Of a stretch of 48,817 nucleotides of DNA, positions 1 to 14,680 are shown piece after piece. Below the pieces are notes generated by a model that had not been told where the DNA came from, did not search any database, and saw nothing but the letters and a program-made list of their open reading frames with translations. The DNA lies in the NCBI GenBank assembly GCA_027483175.1, contig JAIXVE010000349.1, positions 1-48,817 on the forward strand. Direction: 5' to 3'. The stretch is from Verrucomicrobiaceae bacterium (GTDB taxonomy: Bacteria > Verrucomicrobiota > Verrucomicrobiia > Verrucomicrobiales > V1-33). The translations under genes and the position numbers were made by a program. Every line of letters begins with the position of its first letter. Position 1 is the first letter of the stretch.

Positions 1-163
1 ACCGACGAGCAACACAGGAATCGGGAAAAAGACCCGTCCCCTACCCCCTCCGCAGTGCGCCTCAATCCTCCTTCCTTCCCACAAAATCAGAAGATACCAT
101 CTGTAAGGCGGGCTGCACTAGCACATCACACCCCGAAGTGCTCCGCACGCCTGCCTGCCCGCC

Positions 164-916
164 TCAGTCCTTCTTCCGGAACACTTCCTTGAAAAACCGC
201 TTCATCGCCGCCCACGACTCCTTGTCCGCCTTCTCCTGATAGGCCGGTCCCGGCTTCGTGAACCCATGCAGCGCCCCCTCGTAACTCACAAACTCCATCT
301 TCGCCTGCGACTGCTTCATCTCTTCCTGAAACCCTGGCACTTCCTTTCCCACATTCGCGTCCGCACCGCCGTGGCACACCAGAATCCGCGCCTTGATCGC
401 CCCAGGCGCCGCCGGCAGCGTCGTTCCCAGCCCTCCGTGAAAACTCACCACGCCGCGCACATCCGCTCCGCTCCTCGCCAGCTCCAGCACGCAGCTGCCC
501 CCGAAACAATAACCAATCGCCCCCAACCGCCCACCGTCCACTTCCTTCCGCGCCTTCAATTGCTCCAGGCCCGCCAGCACCCGCCGCCGCAGCAACGGCA
601 GATCCTTCCGGTACTTGCCAGACTGCACCGCACATTCCTTCGGATCCGCCGGCCGCACGTCCTTGCCGTAAATGTCCGCCGCAAACGCCACATACCCCAG
701 CCCCGCCAGCATCTTCGCCCGCTCCTTCGTGTAATCCTGCAACCCCGTCCAGTCGTGCACCACCAGAACCCCCGGCCGCGCCCCCTTCACACTGTCATCC
801 CACGCCACAAATCCCTCCAACGCCGTCTCCCCGTCCTTGTACACCACCGACTCCGTCTGAATCGCAGCATGGAGCATCGTGGCAGTCAGCGAAAGAATTG
901 TTAGCGCAAGTTTCAT
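164..916 (-). CDS. Dienelactone hydrolase family protein, secreted
   Basis: An alpha/beta hydrolase of the dienelactone hydrolase family, 250 aa from the ATG at 916. The family hydrolyses lactone or ester bonds with a Cys-His-Asp triad. The nucleophile elbow GYCFGG places the cysteine near residue 137, the acid is probably the Asp in HGGAD near 186, and the histidine lies in LHGF near 217. A signal peptide (MKLALTILSLTATMLHA) suggests export. The track extends to a GTG at 922, but AGGGAG sits about five bases before the ATG at 916 and would abut the GTG, so I prefer the ATG. It is divergent from the next gene. The substrate is unknown; many family members act on other small esters. Confidence 0.88.
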   Translation of the reverse strand: MKLALTILSLTATMLHAAIQTESVVYKDGETALEGFVAWDDSVKGARPGVLVVHDWTGLQDYTKERAKMLAGLGYVAFAADIYGKDVRPADPKECAVQSGKYRKDLPLLRRRVLAGLEQLKARKEVDGGRLGAIGYCFGGSCVLELARSGADVRGVVSFHGGLGTTLPAAPGAIKARILVCHGGADANVGKEVPGFQEEMKQSQAKMEFVSYEGALHGFTKPGPAYQEKADKESWAAMKRFFKEVFRKKD

Positions 917-1046
917 ACCCACTCCCTAAACTCCCGATTCTCCACCCTCAAGCGCCACCCGTTCCGCACCGACGGGAAATTCTTCCACTTTTTCCGTGGG
1001 TTTCTCACCCGGCAGACGTGTTCCTGCCGGAACCATTCCACTCACC

Positions 1047-1910
1047 ATGAAACTCCTCCTCTCGATCCTCTCCCCTCTCCTCGCCGCCTCCCTCCACGGC
1101 CTCGCCCAGCAACCAGACGTCACACCTCTGGCCCCCGCCACCACCGACCCTCATGCCTCGCAACATGCAGACCCCTTCGCCGATCCCCATGCCCCCCAAA
1201 TCCCCCCCGGCACGCGCCTCGACAAGGTCGTGTTCTCAGACGCTAATCTAGCCGAAGTCATTGAGTATCTCGACAAAAGATCTCAGAACGAAGGCAGCCG
1301 TCCGCTCAACGTCGTCCTCCAACCCGGCCTCGAATCCGTCACCATCCCCGCCCTCTCCCTCCGCAACGTCACCACCACCGAGGTCCTCCGCGTCGCCTCC
1401 ACCATCCTCGGTCTCTCCCTCGAACCAGTCAAAGGCGACACCGACGACTCCGTCGCCGCATGGATCCTCAAACGCCCCTCGCCCGTCGATCCCGCCCAGC
1501 CCACCAGCGCCGACCCAAACGCCATCCTCGAATCCGAAGGCCTCGCCCTACCCGTGACACCATCGACCGTACAACCGCTCGCCTCCTCAGGCAGCCCACG
1601 CCAGACCCGCGTCTTCAGCATCGCCTCCCTCGTCCCTCGCCGCGCCCCTTCTCGTGAAGCCGCCGAACTCCGCGAGAAAGAAACATACCACCTCATCAAC
1701 TCCCTCACAGAATTCGCCCAGCAACTCGATAAAGCCGCCGATATCCGCCACTTCTCTTCCCTCGACCTCATCGTCGTCAAATCCACCGCCCTCCCGCTCA
1801 TCAGCGAAGCCATCGACGCCATGCGCAGCGACGCCGCCATCCGCTACCCCGCTCCCACTCCCCCATCCCCCACCCCAAACGGCGCTCCCGGACAACCCGC
1901 CGACCACTGA
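1047..1910 (+). CDS. Periplasmic protein with secretin N-domain (STN-like) folds
   Basis: A 287 aa protein with a signal peptide (MKLLLSILSPLLAASLHGLAQ); the track start at 996 is a GTG upstream of this, so I use the ATG at 1047. Residues about 50-140 resemble a secretin/TonB short N-terminal domain: a segment like FSDANLAEVIEYLDKRS, then a strand-rich stretch with LRNVTTTEVLRVAS. A second part near the C-terminus ends in a strand-helix pattern (LDLIVVKSTALPLISEAIDAM) typical of secretin N1/N2 units. No barrel is present, so it is not a secretin itself. It is followed after 30 bases by an ECF sigma factor, suggesting one operon. The exact role is unknown. Confidence 0.7.
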   Translation: MKLLLSILSPLLAASLHGLAQQPDVTPLAPATTDPHASQHADPFADPHAPQIPPGTRLDKVVFSDANLAEVIEYLDKRSQNEGSRPLNVVLQPGLESVTIPALSLRNVTTTEVLRVASTILGLSLEPVKGDTDDSVAAWILKRPSPVDPAQPTSADPNAILESEGLALPVTPSTVQPLASSGSPRQTRVFSIASLVPRRAPSREAAELREKETYHLINSLTEFAQQLDKAADIRHFSSLDLIVVKSTALPLISEAIDAMRSDAAIRYPAPTPPSPTPNGAPGQPADH

Positions 1911-1940
1911 TCTCCCCCACCAACCCATCCCCCCACCCCA

Positions 1941-2570
1941 GTGGAACGCGGCGACCTCTCCCTCTCCGCACCGGCCCAGTCACCCACCGACTGCGCCGCA
2001 CCACCCCCATCCCCTGACATCCCCGCCCTCTGCTCAGCCGTCCGCCGCGGCGACGAATCCGCCGTCCGATCCCTCCACGCACTCTATCACAACCGCCTCT
2101 CCCGCTACGCCCTCGTCATCACCCGCGGCAACGAAGCCATCGCCTCAGACGCCGTTCAGAATACCTTCCTCAAAGCCCTCCGCTCCCTCCGCCCCCTCCC
2201 CGACGAACCAGCCCTCTGGGCATGGCTAGCCAGAGCCTGCCGCTCCTCCGCCTCCGACGAATCCAGACGCTCCCGACGCTACTCCGCCTTCCTCTCCAGA
2301 CTCGCCTCTCTCTTCTCACCTCCAGACCCCAACCCTCCCGAAGACTCCGAATCCATCTGGCACGCCGCCCTCCAACTCGCACTCGCCAACCTCCCGGATT
2401 CCGACCGCGCCCTCCTCGACGACCGCTACACCCACCGCCATTCCCTCGCCTCCATCGCCACCGCCACCGGATCCTCCGAACGCGCCATCGAAGGCCGCCT
2501 CGCTCGACTCCGCCACCACCTCCGACAATCCATCCTCAGGAACCTCGCCTCCAGACCCCATGAACCCTGA
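1941..2570 (+). CDS. ECF-type RNA polymerase sigma factor
   Basis: A 209 aa sigma-70 family protein of the extracytoplasmic-function type. Region 2 is at about 30-105, with the characteristic block ASDAVQNTFLKALRSL. Region 4 is at about 145-200, with LPDSDRALLDDRYTHRHSLASIA and the helix-turn-helix tail SERAIEGRLARLRHHL. The start is a GTG at 1941; no other in-frame start lies before region 2 and there is no obvious Shine-Dalgarno sequence. It sits between a secretin-domain protein and a tiny membrane protein whose ATG overlaps its 3' end by 11 bases, which suggests translational coupling. The small partner may control it, but no anti-sigma (ZAS) motif is visible. Confidence 0.85.
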   Translation: MERGDLSLSAPAQSPTDCAAPPPSPDIPALCSAVRRGDESAVRSLHALYHNRLSRYALVITRGNEAIASDAVQNTFLKALRSLRPLPDEPALWAWLARACRSSASDESRRSRRYSAFLSRLASLFSPPDPNPPEDSESIWHAALQLALANLPDSDRALLDDRYTHRHSLASIATATGSSERAIEGRLARLRHHLRQSILRNLASRPHEP

Positions 2571-2910
2571 CGATCTCCTCGCCGACCTCACACCTCCCAC
2601 CTCCTCCGCCGACCACCTCGTCGCCACCGCCCGCCGTCTCGCCCACCGCCGCCAGACGCTCCGCGACTCCCTCGCCGCCGCCGCCATCCTCGCCATCACC
2701 ACCACCCTCATCTCCCGCCTCGTCACCCCCACCTCCCTCCCCTCTCCCCTCTCCACCACCCAACCCATTCCCACTCCAGCACCGCTCTCCGCAGACGAAC
2801 TCCTCGATGCGTTCGGCGATCAACCCGTCGCCCTCGTCACCTACCCCGACGGCCGCCAGCAACTCCTCGCCATCCTCCGCCCCCCTCCCCGCACCACTAC
2901 CCCTCACTGA
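2560..2910 (+). CDS. Small single-pass membrane protein next to the sigma factor
   Basis: A 116 aa protein I do not recognise by family. A basic N-terminal stretch (ATARRLAHRRQTLR) precedes one hydrophobic helix (LAAAAILAITTTLISRLV, about residues 39-56), then a Pro/Thr-rich linker and a short domain containing ALVTYPDGRQQLLAILR. This predicts a cytoplasmic N-terminus and a periplasmic tail. The start overlaps the ECF sigma gene by 11 bases. Position and topology fit a membrane partner or regulator of the sigma factor, but the cytoplasmic part is short for an anti-sigma domain and lacks the HxxxCxxC zinc motif. The function is inferred from context only. Confidence 0.6.
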   Translation: MNPDDLLADLTPPTSSADHLVATARRLAHRRQTLRDSLAAAAILAITTTLISRLVTPTSLPSPLSTTQPIPTPAPLSADELLDAFGDQPVALVTYPDGRQQLLAILRPPPRTTTPH

Positions 2911-3016
2911 CCGCCCCACCGCCCACCACCGCTTCCGGCTCGCGAGACGCCATTCAGCCTATCCGAGTTCCTCAATCCCCGCGCGCACATCGCTTTCTCC
3001 ATTCAGCCGCCCTCCC
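2911..3016. other. Intergenic stretch before the left repeat
   Basis: Together with the following repeat and left junction this makes a 360-base gap between the small membrane protein and the PPTase gene. These 106 bases are C-rich like the host DNA. I see no gene or convincing terminator here. Confidence 0.5.
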
Positions 3017-3142
3017 CATCCCCCGGACACAGCAACACCACCTCCCCATCGGAAGCCGGTGTTCCCTCACAAATCTCCGACAGGATTCCCCGTCGCCCTC
3101 CCGCTCAGAACTTGTAGTCCATCAGCACCTGGAAGCGCCCGC
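3017..3142 (-). repeat. Left 126-bp direct repeat: degenerate copy of bamA 3' end
   Basis: This segment matches 14555-14680 over 126 bases in the same orientation; by eye I count 7 mismatches and no gaps. Read on the - strand it encodes the last residues of BamA (GRFQVLMDYKF and stop) and its 3' untranslated region. Homology to bamA stops abruptly at 3142, where the upstream frame becomes unrelated (a short open frame from an ATG at 3194 runs into it). Two of the mismatches break the stem of the hairpin that is perfect in the right copy. It looks like a vestigial end of an inserted island. Confidence 0.88.
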
Positions 3143-3270
3143 CATGGAAACGTGCCGTGTCCTCTCGATTACGCTCGGATTCTTTTGAATTCATGGCCTC
3201 GGACGGTATCAATCCGCGGGGAGGTCGTCCGGCGATTCCGCTGCGCCCATGGATGAATCATGGCACAGGT

Positions 3271-4035
3271 TCATCCAGGTGGAGTCTCCCCGACAAGCCC
3301 GGGCTTCCGCCCCTTCTCGACGACCAGAGCCCCGACAAAACCTTCCGGCAAAGGGATCTCGTGGACCTCCCAGGATACGGTCTCCACATCTGCCCCAGGC
3401 AACCGCAGCACCTCCGCCGGCCTCCCCGGAGCAAACGTGAACTCAATCTCCGAAATCTCATCGGTCAATCCTTCACCAGTCGCCTTCAGATACGCTTCCT
3501 TGCGCGTCCATCCTGCGAAGAATGCCCGCTCTTGCTGCTCCGGCGGCAAAGCGAGCACCCCGCCCAACTCGCTGGCCGAGAAAACCCGCTCGGCGATCAA
3601 CGGCCAATCCATCTCCCGCCCTGTCCATTCGACATCGACTCCCACCTCCCGTCCTTTGGCCAGCGCAATCACCACCAGTGAGTTGGAATGAGCCAGATTG
3701 AATCGAATATCACCCTCGGCGGACCCGCTGATCAACCGGGGCTTGCCGCGCGATTCATAACCAATCGCCACCTCAGTCGGATCGACCCTCAGGACTCCTC
3801 CCAGAAGAAGTCGCAACAACGCCCGCCCGAAAACAAACTCATTCCGCGCCTCCATCCCTATAAAACGCTCGGCCCGCAATCGCTCTGGTCCGTCGAGCAA
3901 CCGGGCATAGGCCGATATCTCCACCGCATCGCCAGGCACCTTACCAAGCCAGACATGGACATCCTCGTTTCCCGCTCCCACCGGATTTGCATTCCAGCTA
4001 GCGATGTCCTTCCACTCATGACAGGTGATTCGCAT
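3271..4035 (-). CDS. 4'-phosphopantetheinyl transferase, Sfp type
   Basis: A 254 aa cytoplasmic enzyme that transfers the phosphopantetheine arm of CoA to the conserved serine of carrier domains. It shows the family landmarks in order: FNLAHS (about 112-117), the Mg-binding GVDVE (132-136) and the catalytic WTRKEAYLKATGEGL (176-190), the W-x-x-KEA signature. The length is usual for Sfp-type enzymes. It is the last gene of the - strand NRPS operon, 45 bases after the synthetase stop, so its natural partners should be the two PCPs of the NRPS and the carrier domain of the acyl-AMP ligase. Having its own PPTase makes the island self-sufficient. Confidence 0.93.
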   Translation of the reverse strand: MRITCHEWKDIASWNANPVGAGNEDVHVWLGKVPGDAVEISAYARLLDGPERLRAERFIGMEARNEFVFGRALLRLLLGGVLRVDPTEVAIGYESRGKPRLISGSAEGDIRFNLAHSNSLVVIALAKGREVGVDVEWTGREMDWPLIAERVFSASELGGVLALPPEQQERAFFAGWTRKEAYLKATGEGLTDEISEIEFTFAPGRPAEVLRLPGADVETVSWEVHEIPLPEGFVGALVVEKGRKPGLVGETPPG

Positions 4036-4080
4036 GGCGATCTTACGGGGGATGCGCGCGCTCGGGCTCTTGCCCGGCGC

Positions 4081-7000
4081 TCATCCGGCTTTGGACAGTG
4101 CCGCCTCCATTGATTTGGCGAGCGATTCAAGATTAGAAGCTTCTAACATGGTACCGTGCGTACCGGATACATGGTGGATGCTGACACCGCCGCGGGCCAT
4201 CCGCTTCCAGAAGGCATGAAGGCTTGGCGTGGATGTTTCGGCCGCGAAGAAATCGACGTGCCCGGAATAGACCTTCGGTCGGTAGAGTGCCGACGCCACA
4301 TCGTAATAGTCCGGTTGGTCTTTCTTCTGATTCTCCCGATTGGGCTCCGTCGGCAATTGCGTTCGTGAGCGTTTGCGCAGAACAAAATAACTCAACGCGT
4401 TCCAACGACCGAGGAAATACTGGCCGCGCTCGGCCAGCGGCAATTCGCGCCACTGCCTCAGGTGGACCCCGAGCCTCTTGCGGAAATGGGGGAGCAGCGT
4501 CCCGAGATAGGCTTTCAGTGGGACATGAGAGGTGGCGTGGGTGTCTAACAATCCAAGAAAAGCAACCGTTCCGCCCTCGCTGCTCAATTCCTGAGCCACC
4601 GCGTAAGCGATCCAGCCGCCGAGAGAAAAACCCGCAAGGTGATACGGACCTTCCGGTTGCAGGGAACGGATCTCCCGGGCGTAATGCCGCGCCATTTCCT
4701 CCACGCTGGTGTGGCGAGGTGCAAGCCCATCCAGACCCACCGCCTGCACCCCGTAGATCGGACGATCATTCTTCATCGTCCGGGCCAGATCCAGGAACAC
4801 GTAAACATCACCGCCCCACCCATGAATCAGAAACAACGGCGGTTTCGAACCCGACGGCTGCAAAGGCACCAGTGAACTCCACGCCGGTGCCCAATTGTCA
4901 TCACTGAGCCGACGCGCAAAAGAAGCAATCGTTGGCGATTGGAACAATGTCGCGATCGGAATCTTCCGATCCAGAAGCTTCTCAATCTCCACAGCCAGTC
5001 GCGCTGCTTGAAGCGAATGCCCGCCAAGGTCGAAGAAATTGTCATTGCGACCAATGCCTGATCGATGAAAGAGCCGTTCCCAGATCCGAATCAATTCAAG
5101 TTCAAGCAGGCTGCTTGCCTGATCCGATGGTTGGGCATCTTTGGGGTAACTCTGATCGGGCGCTGGCAATTTGTTGCGATCCACTTTGCCATTGGGCGTC
5201 AGGGGTAACTGGTCCAGCCATACGAAGGCATTAGGCAGCATGTATTCCGGAAGCGTGGAACAAAGCCGCGCCCGCAGGCTGGCCGGGTCAGCCTGCGGTG
5301 AAGAGGTATCCACCAGATAAGCAAACAGTTGTTTGTCCCCGGATTCCGCTTCGCTCACGACCACCACCGCGTCAGTGACCCCAGGGCAACCACGAAGCGC
5401 GTGCTCAATCTCCCCCAATTCAATCCGATATCCGCGGATCTTAACCTGATGATCGAAACGTCCCAGGAATTCGATGGTCCCATCGGGCCGCCAGCGTGCG
5501 AGATCCCCGGTCTTATAAAGGCGAGCCTGAGAATCCGTGCTGAATGGATCCGCGACAAACTTCTCTTGTGTAAGCTCAGGCGCGTTCAGGTACCCGCGGG
5601 CCAGACCATCCCCGCCCGCGTGAAGCTCACCCGCCACCCCCGGCGGCACCGGCTCGCCTTGCTTGTCCAGAATGTAGACCGTCGTCCCCGCAATCGGACG
5701 GCCAATCGGCACCGAAGCCCCGACTTGCGACGCCTCGTCGAACACGCCACAACACGTGAAGGTGGTGTTCTCCGTCGGGCCATAGCCATTGATGAGCCGG
5801 CCGTGTCCCGGCATCTCCAGATAGTCGCGCACCCTCGCAGGCGACAACACATCACCACCGGCCAGCAATTGCCGCACTCCCGCAAGGGCCGCTGGCTGTA
5901 GTTCCACCATTTGGTGAAACAATGCCGCTGTCAGCCAAAGCGTGGTTACCCCGTGCCCCGTGATGGCACTTCCAAGCTCGTCGAGATCGAATGATTCACT
6001 CGAGGGCAAAACCAATTTCGCTCCATTGAGCAGACTGCCCCAGATCTCGAACGTCGAGGCATCGAACGAAATCGGCGCGAATTGCAGTAGCACGTCCGCG
6101 GGTCCCAATTCGACGTAATCAGGATCGACCACCAGCCGGACAATCCCTCGGTGCGGCACCATCACGCCTTTAGGCTTGCCTGTGGTGCCCGAAGTAAACA
6201 TCACGTAGCCCAGATCCCCGGGCTTGTTGGTGCATGGCAAATCTGATGAATCCGATCCTTCCAGACGTTCCAGGAGATCCTCCAGTCCAAGGACTTGTCC
6301 GCCCTGCGAGGACTCTCCCGCCAGAGAAACAATCCGATCCCGCCACAGACGCTGGCAGAGAATCAGGGAGGCGTTCGTATCCTGCAATAGCACGCGGAGC
6401 CGCTCCATCGGCAGTTTCGGATCCAGTGGCACATACGCGCCACCCGCCTTCAGAATACCGAGCAAGGCGATGATCATTTCCACCGAACGTTCGGTGCAAA
6501 GTCCCACCAGCACATCAGGAGCCACCCCGAGAGATCGCAGATGATGCGCTAACCGGTTCGCCCGGACGTTGACTTCCTGATAGCTCAGACAGACGTCGCC
6601 GCTCTGCAGCGCCACCGCTTCAGGGGCACGATTCACTTGTTCCTCAAAAATCTGATGCGCGCACTTGTCACGCGGATAGTTCCTTCCGGTCTGGTTCCAT
6701 TCCACCAGCAGCCGGTGCCTTTCCGATTCCGGCATCAGTCGCAACTGATCGATAGGTTTCCGCGGGGCTTCGGCAATCGCCTCCAGCAACTCCTTCAGAT
6801 GCCCGGCCATCCGCCCGGCCTCCTCTTCCGTGAAGATGTCGCAGGCATACTCCAATTGGCAATCCCAGCCCCGCTCCGATGCCATCACGCTGAAGATCAA
6901 ATCACACTTGCTAGTGTGGTTGTGCATCGGCACCAGGTGACCCTTTGCTTGGTCGAGGATCAATTGGGGCAGCACCTGCTCCACAAAAACAAACATCACC

Positions 7001-10000
7001 TGGTGTAAAGGCTGGGAATGAGCCTCACGCTCCTTGACCGCGAGTTCCACCATCTCTTCAAACGGAAGTCGCGCATGGTCGAAGGCATCGAGAACCGTTT
7101 GCCGAACCTGCCGCAGTATCTCCTCGAACCCCTCGTGGCCCTTCACCCTGCAGCGGATGGGCAGGGTATTGAGGAAGAACCCGATGAGATTCTGGAATTC
7201 CCTTCTTTCCCGCCCGGTGATCGGAGTGGCCACCACTAGGTCGTCTTGGCCGGTGAAGCGGTACAGCCAAACCTGATAGGCAGCCAGCGCGGTCATGAAG
7301 GAAGTCGCATTCTCCTCACGTGACAGAACATTGAGCCTCGCCGCAACCTCACCGGCGAGTCGAAAAGATTGGATCGCACCCCGACCGCTTCGATGAAGCG
7401 GTTTTCGAATACCGCAGCGAAGATCCAAATCCGGTGGCAATTCCCGGAGTTGTTCGCTCCAGAAATCCCTCTGAGCCTCCATCTCCTTAACTGTCAGTCG
7501 TTCCCGCTGCCAGATCGCAAAATCAGCATACTGCATCGGCAATTCCGGCAGCCCCGCCGATTCCTCGTTTCCACCGGCATGATAAAGGCAGCTCAACTCC
7601 TGGAAAAGCAGCCTCACTGACCATTCATCCATGATGCTGTGATGGAAAGTGAACGCTAGCACCTGATCATCCTCCGCCAACTGGATCCAGAGGATCCTCC
7701 ACAGAGGTGCCTCGGACAGATCGAAGGCTCGGCGCGCCTCCTCTTCCAGGACTTGCTGCCATGCGGACGCTCGCTCCGGGACCGCGGTGGAACGCAAGTC
7801 CACCTCCCGCCAGGGCAGCGGAAAATCTTTCGCGTCGGCCACTTGCTGCACCAGATCCTCCCCCTGTATCACCAACGCCGCCCGCAACACCTCATGGCGC
7901 TCCAGAATCACACGCAAGGACGCCCGTACACCCTCCCGATTCACACGGCCAGAAAGGCGGACGACTTTCGGGACATTGTATGCCGCCGGATCCGGCAGCA
8001 TCTGCTGCACCAACCACATCCCCTGTTGGGCGAAGGACATGGGAAAAGGCCCCCGCCGGTCCGCTTTCCGAGTTGGCTCGCTGCCTTTCAAATCGCCGCC
8101 GCAACGAAGGGATTCAATCCTTTCAGATAGGCTTTCAATGGTAGGATGGTCGAAAATCCAGCGCAGGGGGATCTCAAGATCAAGCAATTGCTTTACCTTC
8201 GAGCAGATCGCCACTGCCAGGATGGAGTGTCCCCCGAGATGGAAGAAGTTGTCATGGATGCCCACCTGCTCACGGCGCAGGGCCGTTTGCCAGATTTCGA
8301 CCAGCACTCGCTCCGGTTCATTGCGCGGGGCAGCATAGCCTGCTTCCACAACTTCCAGTTCCACCCCTTCCAGCCGCTCCAGGGCCTTCCGATTCACCTT
8401 TCCGCCCGGTGTCAGGGGGAAAGCAGAAACCATCAGGAAGCGCGATGGGATCATATGATCCGGCAGCTTTTCCTCCATGAAACGGCGCAATTGCCGAGCG
8501 GCCGGATGGAAGTTGCCATCCACCACAAGGTAGGCCGCAAGGCACTTGCCTCCGGTCGCGGCATCATTCGCCAGCACCACCGCCTGTCGCACTCCCGAAC
8601 AGGTCGCCAGCACTTTCTCAATCTCCCCAAGCTCGATGCGATAGCCGCGGATCTTCACCTGATTGTCCACTCGCCCGAGAAACTCGATCGTTCCGTCCGG
8701 CAACCATTTTCCGCGATCTCCCGTTTTGTAGCAACGCGCTTCTGGACCGCACCCGAACGGATCGGCGACAAAACGCGCAGACGTTTCGTCCGGACGGTTC
8801 AGATACCCCCGCGCCACACCCGCGCCACCAATAAGCAATTCCCCCGGCACGCCAACACCCACTTGGCTCATCTGCGAATCGACCACATAAACCCGGGCGT
8901 TTGGCAGTGGACGACCCAGGGGCACCGTCGTCTGGTGGTGCGCGGGATGCGGTTGATCAATTTCATGCGCCAGCACGCCCACGGTCGTCTCTGTCGGACC
9001 GTAGTGATTGAAGATCCGACACTCCGGCACCATCTTCCGGATCCGCTCCAGCATCCTCCAATCCGATGATTCGCCGCCCAGCACCAGAACACGCCGCGGG
9101 ATCAGGTCGGCCGCCTGCCCCGGCGAGACCGACTGGAGCAGCATCTCCAGATGCGAAGGCACGATCTTAACCACATCAATGGTCTTGCTGCGGAAGTAGC
9201 TTGCCAATGCCTTGGGATTGGTACCCCGTTCCCGGGAAATAACGTGCAACGCTCCTCCTGTAACCAAAGAGGGAAACAATACTGTATGCCCAAGATCCGT
9301 TGAAAAGGACGAAACCATCCCATAGCGCAAACCCGACGGCAAAGACAGTCGCTCGACAATCCCGTTGACGTAGTTCACCAAGTGTCGGTGCTCAATGAGC
9401 ACCCCCTTGGGCCGGCCTGTCGAACCAGAAGTGAAAATGGCGTAGGCCAGATTCGCCGACCCGGCGCCGCTAACCGGATTCGTGGATTTTTCGCTGGCAA
9501 GGCTCGGCCAGTCCGTATCAAGGTTGAATACCGGTGGGAGCTCCGTTGGCAGCTGCTCCACCAGAGACGATCCCGTTATCAGCACCGTCGGATTGGTTTC
9601 CTCGATCATCGCTTTCAGGCGGTCGGGCGGACAGGTCGTATCCAGCGGCACATAGCCACCGCCAGCCTTCAGGATGCCAAGCAGTCCCACCACGAGTTCA
9701 AGCGAGCGCTCGGCAAAAAGGACCACCAGCTTTTCCGGGCCGACACCACGTCCACGCAAGTGGTGCGCAAGCTGGTTGGCACGGGAGTTGAGTTCCCGGT
9801 AAGTCAGCGATTGATCCTCGAACACTACCGCCACCGCGTCCGGCGTGCGTTCCACCTGCTCCTCGAACATCTCGTGAACGCCCTTGTCACATGGATAGTC
9901 CCGCTCGGTCTGATTCCATTCCACCAGAGGTTGCTGCCGTTCCTCCGCAGAAAGCACTGGGATATCCGAAAGAAGTTTCCCGGGATCGCTGGCGATGCTT

Positions 10001-11451
10001 TCAAGCACCACAAGCCAATGCCCCAGCATTCGCACCACGCGGTCGGCGTCAAAAAGGTCGGTGTTGTATTCCGCCGTGGCCAACCATTCGGCACCGATCT
10101 TCTTCACCGCTAGCGCGAAATCGAATTTGGCGGTATGTGTATCGGTTCTCCAGGGCGTGGTCAGGATCCCGGGTAACTTTAGCGAAACCTCAGAAAAATC
10201 CTGCAAGGCGAAGGTTACATCAAATAGCTTGGCTGCACCCGCGTCCCGGCGGAGTTGCAGCATTTCCACGAGCCGCTCAATCGGCATGTCCTGATGGGCA
10301 TACGCCTGAACCGCGGTCTCCTTCACCCGGCCTAACACCTCTCGAAATGTGGGTTGGCCGGCCAGGCTCGTCCGCATCACCAGGGTGTTGACGAAAAATC
10401 CGACGAGATCCTCCACCTCCACCCGCTGGCGGTTGGCTATGGGCACGCCGACCAGAACATCCTCTCGCCCGGTATAGCGGTGCAGCAGGACTTTAAACGC
10501 GGCCAGCAGAATCATGAAGAAGGTTGCGCCCTCCTCCCGTGCCCGGGCCATCAGCCTCGCGGTGAGATCGGAATCAACATGAATCTCAGCCCGGGCCCCG
10601 CGAAAGGATTCTTTTGACGGGCGGGGCCGGTCGGATGGCAGATTCAAGGGTTCCAGATCGCCCGCGAGCTGTGCCTTCCAGTACTCGGCCTGCTTCTCAA
10701 AGACACCGCCGGACAACTGGCGCTCCTGCCACGCGGCATAGTCCGCGAACTGCACGGGCAGCGGTGGCAACGGCATCCCATTCCCGGCGGCGCGTGCCGT
10801 GTAGCAGTCGCCCACCTCCCGCCAGAGATTGGAACGAGACCAGCCGTCCGAGATGATGTGGTGTAAGACGAAGCACAACACATGTTCTTCCGGTCCGAGG
10901 CGGGCCAAAGCCACCCGAAAGCCGGGGGCCGCCGCCAGATCGAACGTGCGGCTGGCCACCTCCTCCATGTAGCGATCAGCCGCCGCCGACCGCTCGGCCT
11001 CGGGCACTGCCTGGAAGTTCTCTGCTTCGAAAGCAAACTCCGCACCCGATGCGACATACTGGAATAGTTGCTCGCCTGCCATGACAAAAGTTGTCCGCAG
11101 GGTGTCGTGGCGGCGCACCACATCGGACACCGCACCTAGCAACACATCCTCGTCCAGGGGGCCGATTAGGTGAAACGATGATGGAATCACATAGACCGGC
11201 AACCGCTCCGAATACTCGTGCAGGAACCACATCCGTTGCTGGCTGTGGGAAGCGGGATAAACCGTGACTCGCCCGGTGGGTTCGTTTGATCGGCCGAATG
11301 CCTCCGTCCGCAGGGGAACGGCGGGCACCATGGCCTGATACTCGGTGGAGTCGGCAGCATCGCGACCGGCGGCAAGTCGCTGAACTAGCAACGCGCGTTG
11401 TTTGGGGCTCAATCGGGCAAGTCGTTCTTTCAGGTCCGTCGCTTCGCTCAT
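4081..11451 (-). CDS. Two-module nonribosomal peptide synthetase, C-A-PCP-C-A-PCP-TE
   Basis: About 2456 aa from the ATG at 11451; the track N-terminus (start 11829) reads into the previous gene. That ATG overlaps the upstream stop as ATGA, supporting coupling. Approximate order: helical linker 1-45; C1 50-480 with HHIISDG near 197; A1 500-1020 (IFTSGSTGRPKG, NHYGPTETT, TGDRGKW); PCP1 with LGGHSI near 1070; C2 1125-1560 with HHSIMDE near 1270; A2 1570-2090 (MFTSGTTGKPKG, NGYGPTENTTF); PCP2 with LGGHSL near 2143; thioesterase with GFSLGG near 2275, acid probably in LLDTHA, histidine in SGTHG. Aligning the pockets to GrsA by eye I read A1 as D-L-T-K-V-G-H-V-G-K (aspartate-like) and A2 as D-A-F-W-L-G-G-T-F-K (valine-like). 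There is no epimerisation domain. C1 at the N-terminus presumably accepts an acyl group from the ligase-carrier encoded two genes upstream. Domain calls are firm; substrates are predictions. Confidence 0.95.
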   Translation of the reverse strand: MSEATDLKERLARLSPKQRALLVQRLAAGRDAADSTEYQAMVPAVPLRTEAFGRSNEPTGRVTVYPASHSQQRMWFLHEYSERLPVYVIPSSFHLIGPLDEDVLLGAVSDVVRRHDTLRTTFVMAGEQLFQYVASGAEFAFEAENFQAVPEAERSAAADRYMEEVASRTFDLAAAPGFRVALARLGPEEHVLCFVLHHIISDGWSRSNLWREVGDCYTARAAGNGMPLPPLPVQFADYAAWQERQLSGGVFEKQAEYWKAQLAGDLEPLNLPSDRPRPSKESFRGARAEIHVDSDLTARLMARAREEGATFFMILLAAFKVLLHRYTGREDVLVGVPIANRQRVEVEDLVGFFVNTLVMRTSLAGQPTFREVLGRVKETAVQAYAHQDMPIERLVEMLQLRRDAGAAKLFDVTFALQDFSEVSLKLPGILTTPWRTDTHTAKFDFALAVKKIGAEWLATAEYNTDLFDADRVVRMLGHWLVVLESIASDPGKLLSDIPVLSAEERQQPLVEWNQTERDYPCDKGVHEMFEEQVERTPDAVAVVFEDQSLTYRELNSRANQLAHHLRGRGVGPEKLVVLFAERSLELVVGLLGILKAGGGYVPLDTTCPPDRLKAMIEETNPTVLITGSSLVEQLPTELPPVFNLDTDWPSLASEKSTNPVSGAGSANLAYAIFTSGSTGRPKGVLIEHRHLVNYVNGIVERLSLPSGLRYGMVSSFSTDLGHTVLFPSLVTGGALHVISRERGTNPKALASYFRSKTIDVVKIVPSHLEMLLQSVSPGQAADLIPRRVLVLGGESSDWRMLERIRKMVPECRIFNHYGPTETTVGVLAHEIDQPHPAHHQTTVPLGRPLPNARVYVVDSQMSQVGVGVPGELLIGGAGVARGYLNRPDETSARFVADPFGCGPEARCYKTGDRGKWLPDGTIEFLGRVDNQVKIRGYRIELGEIEKVLATCSGVRQAVVLANDAATGGKCLAAYLVVDGNFHPAARQLRRFMEEKLPDHMIPSRFLMVSAFPLTPGGKVNRKALERLEGVELEVVEAGYAAPRNEPERVLVEIWQTALRREQVGIHDNFFHLGGHSILAVAICSKVKQLLDLEIPLRWIFDHPTIESLSERIESLRCGGDLKGSEPTRKADRRGPFPMSFAQQGMWLVQQMLPDPAAYNVPKVVRLSGRVNREGVRASLRVILERHEVLRAALVIQGEDLVQQVADAKDFPLPWREVDLRSTAVPERASAWQQVLEEEARRAFDLSEAPLWRILWIQLAEDDQVLAFTFHHSIMDEWSVRLLFQELSCLYHAGGNEESAGLPELPMQYADFAIWQRERLTVKEMEAQRDFWSEQLRELPPDLDLRCGIRKPLHRSGRGAIQSFRLAGEVAARLNVLSREENATSFMTALAAYQVWLYRFTGQDDLVVATPITGRERREFQNLIGFFLNTLPIRCRVKGHEGFEEILRQVRQTVLDAFDHARLPFEEMVELAVKEREAHSQPLHQVMFVFVEQVLPQLILDQAKGHLVPMHNHTSKCDLIFSVMASERGWDCQLEYACDIFTEEEAGRMAGHLKELLEAIAEAPRKPIDQLRLMPESERHRLLVEWNQTGRNYPRDKCAHQIFEEQVNRAPEAVALQSGDVCLSYQEVNVRANRLAHHLRSLGVAPDVLVGLCTERSVEMIIALLGILKAGGAYVPLDPKLPMERLRVLLQDTNASLILCQRLWRDRIVSLAGESSQGGQVLGLEDLLERLEGSDSSDLPCTNKPGDLGYVMFTSGTTGKPKGVMVPHRGIVRLVVDPDYVELGPADVLLQFAPISFDASTFEIWGSLLNGAKLVLPSSESFDLDELGSAITGHGVTTLWLTAALFHQMVELQPAALAGVRQLLAGGDVLSPARVRDYLEMPGHGRLINGYGPTENTTFTCCGVFDEASQVGASVPIGRPIAGTTVYILDKQGEPVPPGVAGELHAGGDGLARGYLNAPELTQEKFVADPFSTDSQARLYKTGDLARWRPDGTIEFLGRFDHQVKIRGYRIELGEIEHALRGCPGVTDAVVVVSEAESGDKQLFAYLVDTSSPQADPASLRARLCSTLPEYMLPNAFVWLDQLPLTPNGKVDRNKLPAPDQSYPKDAQPSDQASSLLELELIRIWERLFHRSGIGRNDNFFDLGGHSLQAARLAVEIEKLLDRKIPIATLFQSPTIASFARRLSDDNWAPAWSSLVPLQPSGSKPPLFLIHGWGGDVYVFLDLARTMKNDRPIYGVQAVGLDGLAPRHTSVEEMARHYAREIRSLQPEGPYHLAGFSLGGWIAYAVAQELSSEGGTVAFLGLLDTHATSHVPLKAYLGTLLPHFRKRLGVHLRQWRELPLAERGQYFLGRWNALSYFVLRKRSRTQLPTEPNRENQKKDQPDYYDVASALYRPKVYSGHVDFFAAETSTPSLHAFWKRMARGGVSIHHVSGTHGTMLEASNLESLAKSMEAALSKAG

Positions 11452-12020
11452 GAATGGATCCGGTTCAGGTTGCGGTTCAGAACCTCGTTGCACGCCGCCA
11501 GGGTTTCTCCCTTTGCCACCGCCGCTGCTAACGATCCATCCGCCGCAATGAGATTGGCCAGCGCACTCCTCACCGCAGATTGTGCCGCGAAGAGACATGG
11601 GGTGCTGTAAATCACCAGGCTGGCACCATGACCTCCGAGTTCCTCCAGACGGCAGACGGGAGACTTGCCACCGGCAATTTGGTTGAAAACCACCGGGCAA
11701 TCCACCAGCGATCTGGCAACATGACAGGCGACGGCGGTGTCGCAGTAACCATCGTCGATGTCCACCAGCAGATGTTGGGATGGCAAAACCGCCCTCACCC
11801 GGCCGACAAAATCCAGCAGGTCGGACCATGCAATGAACCCCTCGTCGGGCAACCCGTAGTGGCTCGCGGAAAACCCGAATCCGCTGATGAACAGGGCATC
11901 ATGGGTTTCCGCTGCCAGCAAGGCACTGAAAACATCATAGACTCCAATGAACGGAACCAGATCCCCGCGTTTGAGGCGCTCACGCAACATCTTTCCTTTC
12001 GATGAATCCAAAGTGTCCAT
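11448..12020 (-). CDS. PEP mutase/isocitrate lyase superfamily protein, internally shortened
   Basis: A 190 aa protein, while relatives of this superfamily (PEP mutase, 2-methylisocitrate lyase, oxaloacetate hydrolase) are about 270-300 aa. The N-terminal part matches well: VPFIGVYDVFSALLA, FISGFGFSASHYGLPD and the metal-site strand LLVDIDDGY (usually DADTGYG). After HVARSL the sequence jumps to VVFNQIAGGKSP and LGGHGASLVIYST, which normally follow about 100 residues later. The missing middle would carry the catalytic ED(K/Q) loop and the KRCGH-type motif, so classical activity is doubtful. The frame stays open, so this is an in-frame deletion or a specialised short form. It starts 3 bases after the ligase stop and overlaps the NRPS start by ATGA. 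Its role in the cluster is unknown. Confidence 0.75.
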   Translation of the reverse strand: MDTLDSSKGKMLRERLKRGDLVPFIGVYDVFSALLAAETHDALFISGFGFSASHYGLPDEGFIAWSDLLDFVGRVRAVLPSQHLLVDIDDGYCDTAVACHVARSLVDCPVVFNQIAGGKSPVCRLEELGGHGASLVIYSTPCLFAAQSAVRSALANLIAADGSLAAAVAKGETLAACNEVLNRNLNRIHS

Positions 12021-12023
12021 GAT

Positions 12024-13868
12024 TTAGTCGAGCAATTCTGCGCGCTCCTCGGTACTCAGACGCCCAAGGGCTTTTGCCAGGTCATCGAGTTCTTTTTCCG
12101 CCTGAATACGCTCCAGTTCGGCGGCAAGCAGGGCGGGAGTCGGCATTCGGAATAGCAGAGGTGTCGGCAGTTCAAGCGACAGGCTTCGACCTAGCCGGGT
12201 GAGCACTTGAGTGGCACGCAGGGAATCTCCACCAAGCATGAAAAAATTGCCCTGCCTTCCGGCCGGCGGGCAACCAAGCACCTCGCTGAACATGTCCACC
12301 ACTCGCTTCTCCATGGGCGATGCCGGTTCTTCATGCGCAGTTGCTAGAAACGCACCCAACTGCCGGGCCAAACCGATGCGCTGGATTTTTCCCGTGGAGC
12401 CTCTTGGAATGTCCGGCACTGCGATAATCCGGCTCGGGGCTTTGAAGGCCGGCAGTCGATCAAGCACAAAACCCCTTAAGTCCGCTTCCGTGCAGTCAGC
12501 GCCCGGGTGCAATACAACAGCAGCGACCACATCCTCGCCCAGCGATGGGTGAGGGACGGCGAATGCCACCGCTTGCCGAACCATGGGATGAGCCAGCAAT
12601 GCCTCATCCACCTCACGGGGAGCTAATTTTTCTCCGCCGCGATTGATCATTTCCTTCAGTCTTCCGGTGATAAACAGATAGCCGTCCGCATCAAAGAAGC
12701 CTTGGTCGCCGGTGCGCATCCAACCCAGATGGAACGCCTGGGCGTTGGCTTCGGGATTCCCATGGTAGCCGGGAGTCACATTTTCACCACGGATGGCAAT
12801 TTCACCAGTGGTTCCAGCTTCCATCTGATCCCCCGCTTCATCCAAAATGGCGATCTCAGGACCAGCGGGAAGCCCCACACAACCGGGTTTCCGGAGGCGC
12901 GGTGGCAAAGGGTTGCTGGCCATCTGGTGAGCAGCTTCCGTCATGCCATAGGATTCGATCACCGGCACCTGGAAAAGATTCTCAAGACCCATCATCACTG
13001 ATGGAGGCAACGCGGCAGATGAAGACCGTATGAAACGGAGGCTGCTTTCCATGATGGATCGGCCTTGGCCTTGCAAATGCGCCAGAATCGCCTGATGCAT
13101 CGTCGGCACCGCGGAATACCAGGTCGGTTTCCAGGTTCCCAGCCAACCGGGAAAATCGTCCGCGTTAAATCCCGTGGTGCAAATCGTGCCGCCACCCGCC
13201 GCCAGCGATGCCAGCACACACGCCACTAGGCCATGGATGTGGAAAAGCGGCATCACATTGAGGCAAAGGTCCGATTCCGACAGTTCCAATGTGCTCCCGA
13301 TGTTCCGGGCCGACGCGCAAAGATTTCTCTGGGTGAGGGGAACCATCTTCGGGCGCGAGGTCGTGCCCGAGGTATGCAGCACCAGAGCCACGTCATCTGC
13401 TTCGGCAAGGCCGGGTTGCGCGGCCCCGGTGCCGGGAGTGCCGGAAAGATCAAAACTCCCGTTGGGCCGCAGGACTAGCTCAATCACAGGCACCCCGAGC
13501 GCAGTGGCCGCCAAGCGGGCCGGTGTTTCATCCCCCACCATCACGATCAGGCTCTTTGCCCGCAAGTCCCCGAGATAAAAGGCGAACTCTTTCTCCAAAT
13601 AGGCAGGGTTCAGAGGCGCCGCGATCGCCACGCTGGCGACAGCCAGAAAAGCCACCGCCAGCTCGGGTCCCTGCGGCAACACGATGGCAACCCGGTCGCC
13701 TCGGCCGATGCCCAGGCAGTTCATCTGCTCCATCGTCCGCTGCACTTGCTCCCAAAGCCTCTCGTGGCTGAGCGGTTCGACACCCTCGCTGGCAATGGCC
13801 TGTCTGGAGCTATATCGGGCGGCGTTTTTCGCGAGCAAAGCGGGGATTGAGCAGTCGCTTTCTGTCAT
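12024..13868 (-). CDS. Acyl-AMP ligase fused to a carrier (ACP/PCP) domain
   Basis: A 614 aa protein. Residues 1-505 are an ANL-superfamily adenylating enzyme: P-loop LHTSGTTSRPKMVP (variant of TSGTTGxPKG), a central ESYGMTEAAHQ, TGDQGFFDADGYLFITGRLKE and the C-terminal lysine in RGSTGKIQRI. Overall it looks like the fatty-acid/oxalyl-CoA ligase branch rather than an amino-acid A domain. Residues about 530-600 form a carrier domain with GGDSLRATQVL, whose serine takes phosphopantetheine. The tail (LDDLAKALGRLSTEERAEL) resembles the helical linker before condensation domains. As the first gene of the operon it probably activates a carboxylic-acid starter and presents it to C1 of the NRPS. The starter identity cannot be read from the sequence. 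Confidence 0.85.
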   Translation of the reverse strand: MTESDCSIPALLAKNAARYSSRQAIASEGVEPLSHERLWEQVQRTMEQMNCLGIGRGDRVAIVLPQGPELAVAFLAVASVAIAAPLNPAYLEKEFAFYLGDLRAKSLIVMVGDETPARLAATALGVPVIELVLRPNGSFDLSGTPGTGAAQPGLAEADDVALVLHTSGTTSRPKMVPLTQRNLCASARNIGSTLELSESDLCLNVMPLFHIHGLVACVLASLAAGGGTICTTGFNADDFPGWLGTWKPTWYSAVPTMHQAILAHLQGQGRSIMESSLRFIRSSSAALPPSVMMGLENLFQVPVIESYGMTEAAHQMASNPLPPRLRKPGCVGLPAGPEIAILDEAGDQMEAGTTGEIAIRGENVTPGYHGNPEANAQAFHLGWMRTGDQGFFDADGYLFITGRLKEMINRGGEKLAPREVDEALLAHPMVRQAVAFAVPHPSLGEDVVAAVVLHPGADCTEADLRGFVLDRLPAFKAPSRIIAVPDIPRGSTGKIQRIGLARQLGAFLATAHEEPASPMEKRVVDMFSEVLGCPPAGRQGNFFMLGGDSLRATQVLTRLGRSLSLELPTPLLFRMPTPALLAAELERIQAEKELDDLAKALGRLSTEERAELLD

Positions 13869-13929
13869 AGGGTGATGGTTTTTGGAAAGGTCGCTGGGGT
13901 CTTAGTAAGCATCGGCCCGGTCAGCAACA

Positions 13930-13959
13930 TCTATCCTGGCGGGTTTTGAATTTTAACAA
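13930..13959 (-). promoter_or_regulatory. Possible promoter of the NRPS operon
   Basis: On the - strand TTGTTA (13959-13954) is followed after 18 bases by GATAGA (13935-13930), a fair -35 and weak -10 pair, about 60 bases upstream of the first gene of the operon. It is one of the few AT-rich spots in the region. This is a weak motif match only. Confidence 0.25.
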
Positions 13960-14053
13960 ACAGACCTCGGGAGTTCGGTCGGTGCATCACTGCTAGAAGT
14001 TTGCTCTCTGCTGGAGGCCCCTGAAAGAGCCATTGGGTCGGACCCCATTGCTG

Positions 14054-14275
14054 TCAGGTTAAGGCCCGGATCCCTGATTCCACGGGGGATTGGCGTCGCC
14101 GTTTGTCCCGCATCACCCGGTCGGGGTAGGGATCGAAATCGAAGAGGGCAGCGATGTCCGGGGCCTTGATGGACTGCCCGGCCAGCAGGTCGTGGAGCTT
14201 TTCATGGCTCAGCCGCGCCCGGCCCACCACGGCACCAATCCGGCGGGCGATCCTCATCCCCAACTGGTTGGGCGA
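14054..14275 (-). pseudogene. Unrecognised gene fragment at the island edge
   Basis: An open frame on the - strand reaches a stop at 14054. Its coding-like part is RPWDRDQTKWSPNQLGMRIA onward, with VVGRARLSHEKLHDLLAGQS and IAALFDFDPYPDRVMRD. I set the lower-bound start near an internal ATG, but the open frame runs up to 14380 without a clear start, overlapping the truncated antitoxin gene in another frame. The charged, helix-rich sequence looks like the C-terminal end of a real protein whose N-terminus has been lost. I do not recognise the family; it is not a PIN toxin. Just beyond its stop is TTAACCTGACAGC and the palindrome GGGTCGGACCC, which could be a relic of an insertion-sequence end. 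Confidence 0.35.
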
Positions 14276-14322
14276 CCACTTGGTCTGATCGCGGTCCCAA
14301 GGTCGCCCCCTGAGTGAAACCC

Positions 14323-14490
14323 CTAACAATGGCGGGCGAGCGCGTCGGCCGATGGCGCATCCGGAACCTCCTCGCGCCAAACCTCCTCCAAACCCTCAAT
14401 GACGAGATCCCTGATGGCGGTGCGTCGGCTCACCGCGGCGACCTTCGTCCTCTCCAGAAGGCCGTCACACAAGTCCACGGTCGTCTTCAT
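14323..14490 (-). pseudogene. Truncated VapB-like antitoxin (ribbon-helix-helix)
   Basis: From the ATG at 14490 the frame reads MKTTVDLCDGLLERTKVAAV, then RRTAIRDLVIEGLEEVW, the typical pattern of VapB/Arc-type antitoxins: an N-terminal strand followed by two helices that bind DNA. Family members usually continue after ...ALARL with a toxin-binding tail; here the frame ends prematurely at DALARHC (55 aa). No VapC/PIN toxin follows; instead an unrelated fragment begins. I read this as a broken toxin-antitoxin locus at the right edge of the island. The track start at 14568 lies inside the right repeat and is not used. Confidence 0.55.
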
Positions 14491-14554
14491 CCGAAACAAA
14501 ACACTTGAAGCTGACTTCGTGCCAACCGCCTCCCTCCCCACCCGCGCCCCACCA

Positions 14555-14680
14555 CATCCCCAGGACACAGCAACACCGGCTCCCCATCGGAAGCCGGTGT
14601 GCCCTCAAAACTCTCCGACAGGATTCCCCGTCGCCCTCCCGCTCAGAACTTATAGTCCATCAGCACCTGGAAGCGCCCGC
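14555..14680 (-). repeat. Right 126-bp direct repeat: authentic bamA 3' end
   Basis: This is the partner of 3017-3142 (7 mismatches by eye, no gaps, same orientation). It contains the last dozen codons of bamA, its stop at 14643 and the downstream hairpin. Recombination between the copies would remove 11,538 bases and leave one bamA 3' end. Confidence 0.88.
14573..14600 (-). terminator. Probable bamA transcription terminator
   Basis: A perfect 9-bp stem (ACACCGGCT / AGCCGGTGT) with a 10-base loop lies about 42 bases after the bamA stop. On the - strand it is followed by a weak T-containing tail (TGCTGTGTCC), so termination strength is uncertain. In the left repeat the stem is interrupted by an AC-for-GG change. 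Confidence 0.5.

Follow-up and report, generated by a model that had tools for sequence, protein, structure and literature searches.

The DNA stretch analysed here, hereafter the window (48,817 nucleotides), belongs to the metagenome-assembled genome of an uncultured freshwater verrucomicrobium, a draft of 365 contigs designated G000, and it carries a complete bamA gene and, beyond the 3' end of that gene, a block of NRPS genes enclosed by two direct copies of the bamA tail (Table 1). A repeat search of the window delimited these copies as 133 nt long, 93% identical and spaced 11,538 bp apart, with 9 mismatches, 7 of which lie inside a 126-nt core; the core had been noticed, in the same orientation and with the same mismatch count, in a preliminary description of this DNA, and the full repeat is slightly longer. 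Elsewhere in the window the left copy finds no better ungapped match than 64 of 133 positions, so the repeat is not a product of chance, and the 5.86-Mb draft genome contains only these two copies and no third. In the left copy, the last 38 nt of the bamA reading frame (GRFQVLMDYKF-stop) are followed by approximately 95 nt of 3' untranslated region (UTR) with a hairpin; folding places this hairpin in both copies with a z-score near -3, which is consistent with a terminator at both tails. GC skew is about -0.1 to 0 from 3.15 to 14.5 kb, as against about -0.4 outside, the shift occurring at either end of the island. A tRNA gene as the target was ruled out, the window being free of tRNA genes. 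Comparisons were made mainly with G002 and G003, which are congeneric sister species, and with G001, a more distant congener; all genomes compared are drafts, and G002 is 75% complete.

Table 1. Features at the left end of the window, in order of position; basis gives the evidence for each assignment
Feature	Position	Strand	Basis
MITE-like repeat, right half	1-121	+	matches in G000, G002, G003; overlap with C24
segment S, apparently relocated	114-2893	+	90% to G003:C7 6828-4067; absent from C276 home locus
dienelactone hydrolase (in S)	164-922	-	Pfam
secretin/FecR-like ORF (in S)	996-1910		
ECF sigma factor (in S)	1941-2570		Pfam
small ORF (S end)	2560-2910		
filler between segment S and bamA stump	2894-3009	.	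no significant match elsewhere in G000-G003
left copy, detached bamA tail	3010-3142 (coding 3105-3142)	-	repeat search, alignment, folding
filler between stump and NRPS cassette	3143-3301	.	no significant match elsewhere in G000-G003
4'-phosphopantetheinyl transferase (PPTase)	3271-4035	-	PF01648, PF22624
NRPS cassette	3302-14241	-	92-96% to G003:C147 13223-24441; low GC skew
two-module NRPS (2 Condensation, 2 AMP-binding, 2 PP-binding, 1 Thioesterase; start codon inferred)	4081-11451	-	Pfam
PEP mutase/isocitrate-lyase-like gene with 93-residue in-frame deletion	11448-12020	-	Pfam; alignment to G003
AMP-ligase with C-terminal carrier domain	12024-13868	-	PF00501, PF13193, PF00550
vapB-like antitoxin gene, 55 aa, adjoins bamA	14323-14490	-	similarity to G002 vapB; without Pfam match
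right copy, apparently native bamA tail	14548-14680 (coding 14643-14680, UTR 14548-14642)	-	repeat search, alignment
bamA, complete, 789 aa	14643-17012	-	98% aa identity to G002 and G003

The NRPS cassette and its second location

The open reading frames of the island encode the PPTase, the NRPS, the PEP-mutase-like protein, the AMP-ligase and the vapB-like product, and no recombinase or integrase is among them, as the preliminary description had also stated. Compared with their counterparts in G003, the cassette genes have dN/dS ratios of 0.19-0.36 (0.23 for the NRPS) and dS values of 0.09-0.20, which fall on either side of the 0.13 of bamA, and they are under purifying selection. The PEP mutase/isocitrate-lyase-like gene has an in-frame deletion of 93 residues with respect to G003, located between two direct copies of CCAGCGAT; with this loss the protein is probably inactive here, and the NRPS pathway may be partly broken in G000. 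Upstream of the NRPS operon, 55 bp (13990-14044) are 91% identical to a sequence in another genus (G009:C160) and resemble the terminus of an insertion sequence or dispersed repeat.

In G003, the cassette occupies a different place, on contig C147, between a small conserved ORF and a gene designated SASA (sialate O-acetylesterase-like, named from sequence alone), and no bamA tail accompanies it there. The same two flanks recur in G000 on contig C22 (723-10257, locus L080), where they enclose a type I restriction-modification system, hsdR/hsdS/hsdM, also named from sequence. Since these flanks hold the cassette in one species and hsdRSM in the other, the cassette resides at two unrelated loci, and the C22 locus is a variable spot, or hotspot. 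The cassette was not found in G001 or in the 75% of G002 that is represented. The composition of the NRPS block, its absence from G001 and G002 as sampled and its other locus in G003 support the part of the preliminary description that treated the block as mobile or acquired; entry of an incoming element at the bamA end, the other part of that proposal, was not borne out by the comparisons that follow.

Downstream of bamA in related genomes

At the nucleotide level bamA is 95.8% identical to the genes of the congeneric G002 and G003, and several features distinguish its two tails in the window. The homology of the right copy to these relatives reaches position 14532, further than that of the left copy; over the 16 nt past the repeat, the right copy is 94% identical to G002, as against 25% for the left copy, which over the same stretch is 31% identical to the right copy. 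The vapB-like gene adjoins the right copy, and the N-terminal 34 residues of its product match those of the G002 VapB encoded downstream of bamA at 17 of 34 positions (50%), although it is too divergent to be an ortholog of the vapB of the relatives. A 46-bp, 78% match between the 3' region of the vapB-like gene and contig C24 (1877-1922) was discarded as too weak. From the longer match to G002, the vapB-like neighbour and the nucleotide sites that the copies share, the right copy looks native, with the end of bamA uninterrupted, and the left copy looks like the extra one, in agreement with the preliminary assignment of the right copy as the true gene end and the left as a stump. The shared sites bear also on the age of the duplication: the two copies agree against G002 and G003 at 3-4 sites, as compared with 1 site for the alternative grouping, and the tail was thus probably duplicated within the G000 lineage or obtained from a very close relative.

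If an element had entered the 3' end of bamA and restored the gene, as was first proposed, island-free relatives would be expected to show the small ORF ending at 2910 joined to bamA. Instead, both G002 and G003 have bamA followed by a vapB-vapC pair and then by a DUF1553 gene, with one bamA tail each, and the hydrolase/sigma factor block lies elsewhere in their genomes; this order is contiguous in G002 and in G003 spans two contigs whose ends overlap perfectly over 73 bp. The predicted empty site, which would include the left flank, therefore does not exist in these relatives, and simple insertion of the cassette at bamA was rejected on the basis of their gene order. Nor do other bamA loci point to elements at this site: in none of 66 such loci, 59 of which had at least 2 kb and 43 at least 9 kb of downstream sequence, was the gene's own tail repeated downstream.

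Two further observations were made among these loci. Locus L140 has a 98-bp, 74% match to the bamA tail, but on the upstream side. At locus L196 (G009:C90), in another genus of the family, hsdS and hsdM lie approximately 3.5-8.5 kb downstream of bamA, either by chance or because this is a further variable spot beside bamA.

The left flank and its continuation beyond the window

The segment to the left of the detached tail, termed S, has a home elsewhere. In G003 (contig C7) it has a radical-SAM gene on one side and other genes on the other, and in G002 (contig C74) its outer neighbour is the same. In G000, contig C276 carries the corresponding radical-SAM piece (116-838, equivalent to G003:C7 3037-3758), which runs directly into sequence equivalent to C7 7359/7444 onward, and S is missing from it. 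Because S is gone from this old site, the left flank of the window appears to be itself relocated and not the ancestral neighbour of bamA.

The window begins within a MITE-like repeat of approximately 211 bp with 34-bp terminal inverted repeats and CTAG ends, another example of which lies at G003:C371 3540-3754 (L201). Matches to this repeat number 63 in G000, 40 in G003 and 17 in G002, with many contigs ending in one, and there are none in 10 other family members (G001 and nine genomes of other genera). The left half of the MITE closes contig C24 and the right half opens the window, the two contig ends sharing exactly 34 bp. C24 also carries the outer 0.5 kb of S (C7 7348-6820); the window resumes at C7 6828, and the G003 sequence is continuous across the site. 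Judged by these matches, C24 joins the window through the MITE. On C24 the order is a stretch at 332-1800 whose equivalent in G003 lies between the DUF1553 gene and vapC, a rayT-like remnant, a segment T, the MITE and S. Segment T accounts for approximately 17 kb and is collinear with G002:C26 and with contigs of G003; it runs on into other DNA in both relatives, and the T-S joint is thus specific to G000. On the rayT side of T, contig ends are reached in G002 and G003. A further contig, C181, stops in the DUF1553 gene, and for this reason we infer its link to C24 only from collinearity. With these contigs in place, bamA would be separated from the DNA formerly downstream of it by about 33 kb made up of T, S, the stump and the NRPS cassette, each derived separately. 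MITEs occur at the T-S joint, inside S and at C276, and none was found at the joints around the bamA stump.

Origin of the second bamA tail

The best reading of these data, held with moderate confidence, is a recombination-driven accretion of segments beside bamA that trapped a duplicated tail. According to this model, T, S and the NRPS cassette would have been joined 3' of bamA, in that order, after the split from the G002 and G003 lineages, replacing the vapC side of the vapB-vapC pair, and the left copy, duplicated from part of the bamA tail, would have been caught between S and the cassette with short filler on either side. As it sits inside a larger patchwork of moved segments, the left copy is probably a piece captured in this way rather than a scar left by a bamA-targeting element; it would not, then, be the remnant of an attB site, and the cassette would be a passenger without a recombinase of its own. 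MITE-associated recombination may have helped the moves. The two tails, the gene orders of the relatives, the join of C24 to the window, the loss of S at C276 and the two sites of the cassette are directly observed; the driver (RecA-dependent or end-joining recombination), the order of events and the copying of the tail are parts of the model that we infer. Several aspects of the locus count against it: a direct repeat around a compositionally distinct block is exactly what an insertion leaves, the filler at the joints (2893-3010 and 3142-3302) matches nothing, and the vapB-like gene is divergent. Sources for both fillers and for 14241-14548 were sought in the four genomes G000-G003, with no convincing match.

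An insertion of the Campbell type, by which a DNA circle bearing the NRPS genes and the bamA tail of a close relative recombined with the resident tail after S had moved there, is unlikely. The tails would have supplied the crossover homology, and their direct orientation, their 133 nt of homology and a divergence (9/133) similar to that between species (9-12 per approximately 133) all suit such an event, for which an integrase is unnecessary. Its prior state, however, with S joined to the bamA tail, is seen in no relative, the native-like longer UTR and the vapB-like neighbour belong to the right copy and not to the left, and the G003 cassette has no bamA tail. The model of the preliminary description, in which the 3' end of bamA served as the attachment site for an integrase-bearing element that subsequently lost the integrase, is quite improbable, even though the repeat lies exactly at the 3' terminus of a conserved gene, the target is intact, the composition is foreign and insertion of mobile elements into the 3' ends of protein genes is documented (PMC6563490). 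Of the features of an integrase-type island, the direct repeat at the target end is present, and a recombinase, an empty site and other elements at the site were not found: the island has no integrase, the empty bamA loci of the relatives are without the left flank, which is itself relocated, the other bamA loci show no tail repeat downstream, the G003 cassette lies elsewhere and is free of the tail, and bamA is not named as an integration site in the literature searched. A variant in which elements truly attach at the 3' end of bamA, S having moved there beforehand, and in which a recombinase whose gene lies elsewhere acted in trans to mobilise a small NRPS element, seems very improbable. Least probable of all is a chimera of assembly or binning. 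The 365-contig draft, the many contigs broken by MITEs and the joining of three unrelated segments might suggest one, yet the copies differ by 7%, so that the joint did not arise from exact shared k-mers; the filler is unique sequence, S is lost at C276 but present in the window, so that the two loci complement each other, and both C24 and the window agree with G003 on either side of the MITE.

Known systems resemble the accretion beside bamA in part. Hotspots driven by recombination without an integrase have been described (Oliveira type; 2017, PMC5635113), and like these the loci described here show no recognisable mobile element, lie beside conserved genes and have the same flanks with different cargo, as seen at the SASA locus (NRPS genes in G003:C147, hsdRSM in G000:C22) and at bamA (vapB-vapC in G002 and G003, the patchwork in G000). 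Unlike them, the bamA spot holds chromosomal segments that have moved and a gene tail that was duplicated, and the likeness is one of gene order. The H47 genomic island of Escherichia coli is small, is without its own recombinase and recombines at short direct repeats (PMC5426353). The island beside bamA likewise has direct repeats at its borders and no recombinase; however, excision of H47 was seen by PCR, whereas the present island is not known to excise, and its repeats are long, 7% diverged and located in one case in the tail of an essential gene. Integrated mobile elements (iMGEs) of Thaumarchaeota enter the 3' ends of protein genes (PMC6563490), and at the bamA island, too, a conserved protein gene stays intact and has a border repeat at its 3' end; the island differs in that it has no integrase, its left flank is not native and the relatives offer no clean empty site.

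A direct repeat of a gene end around a foreign block is thus by itself no proof of site-specific integration; here the sister genomes reveal stacked, moved segments. Sister species carry one NRPS cassette at loci unrelated to each other, no mobility gene being visible, and this cassette represents a tractable example of biosynthetic cluster relocation in uncultured Verrucomicrobiota.
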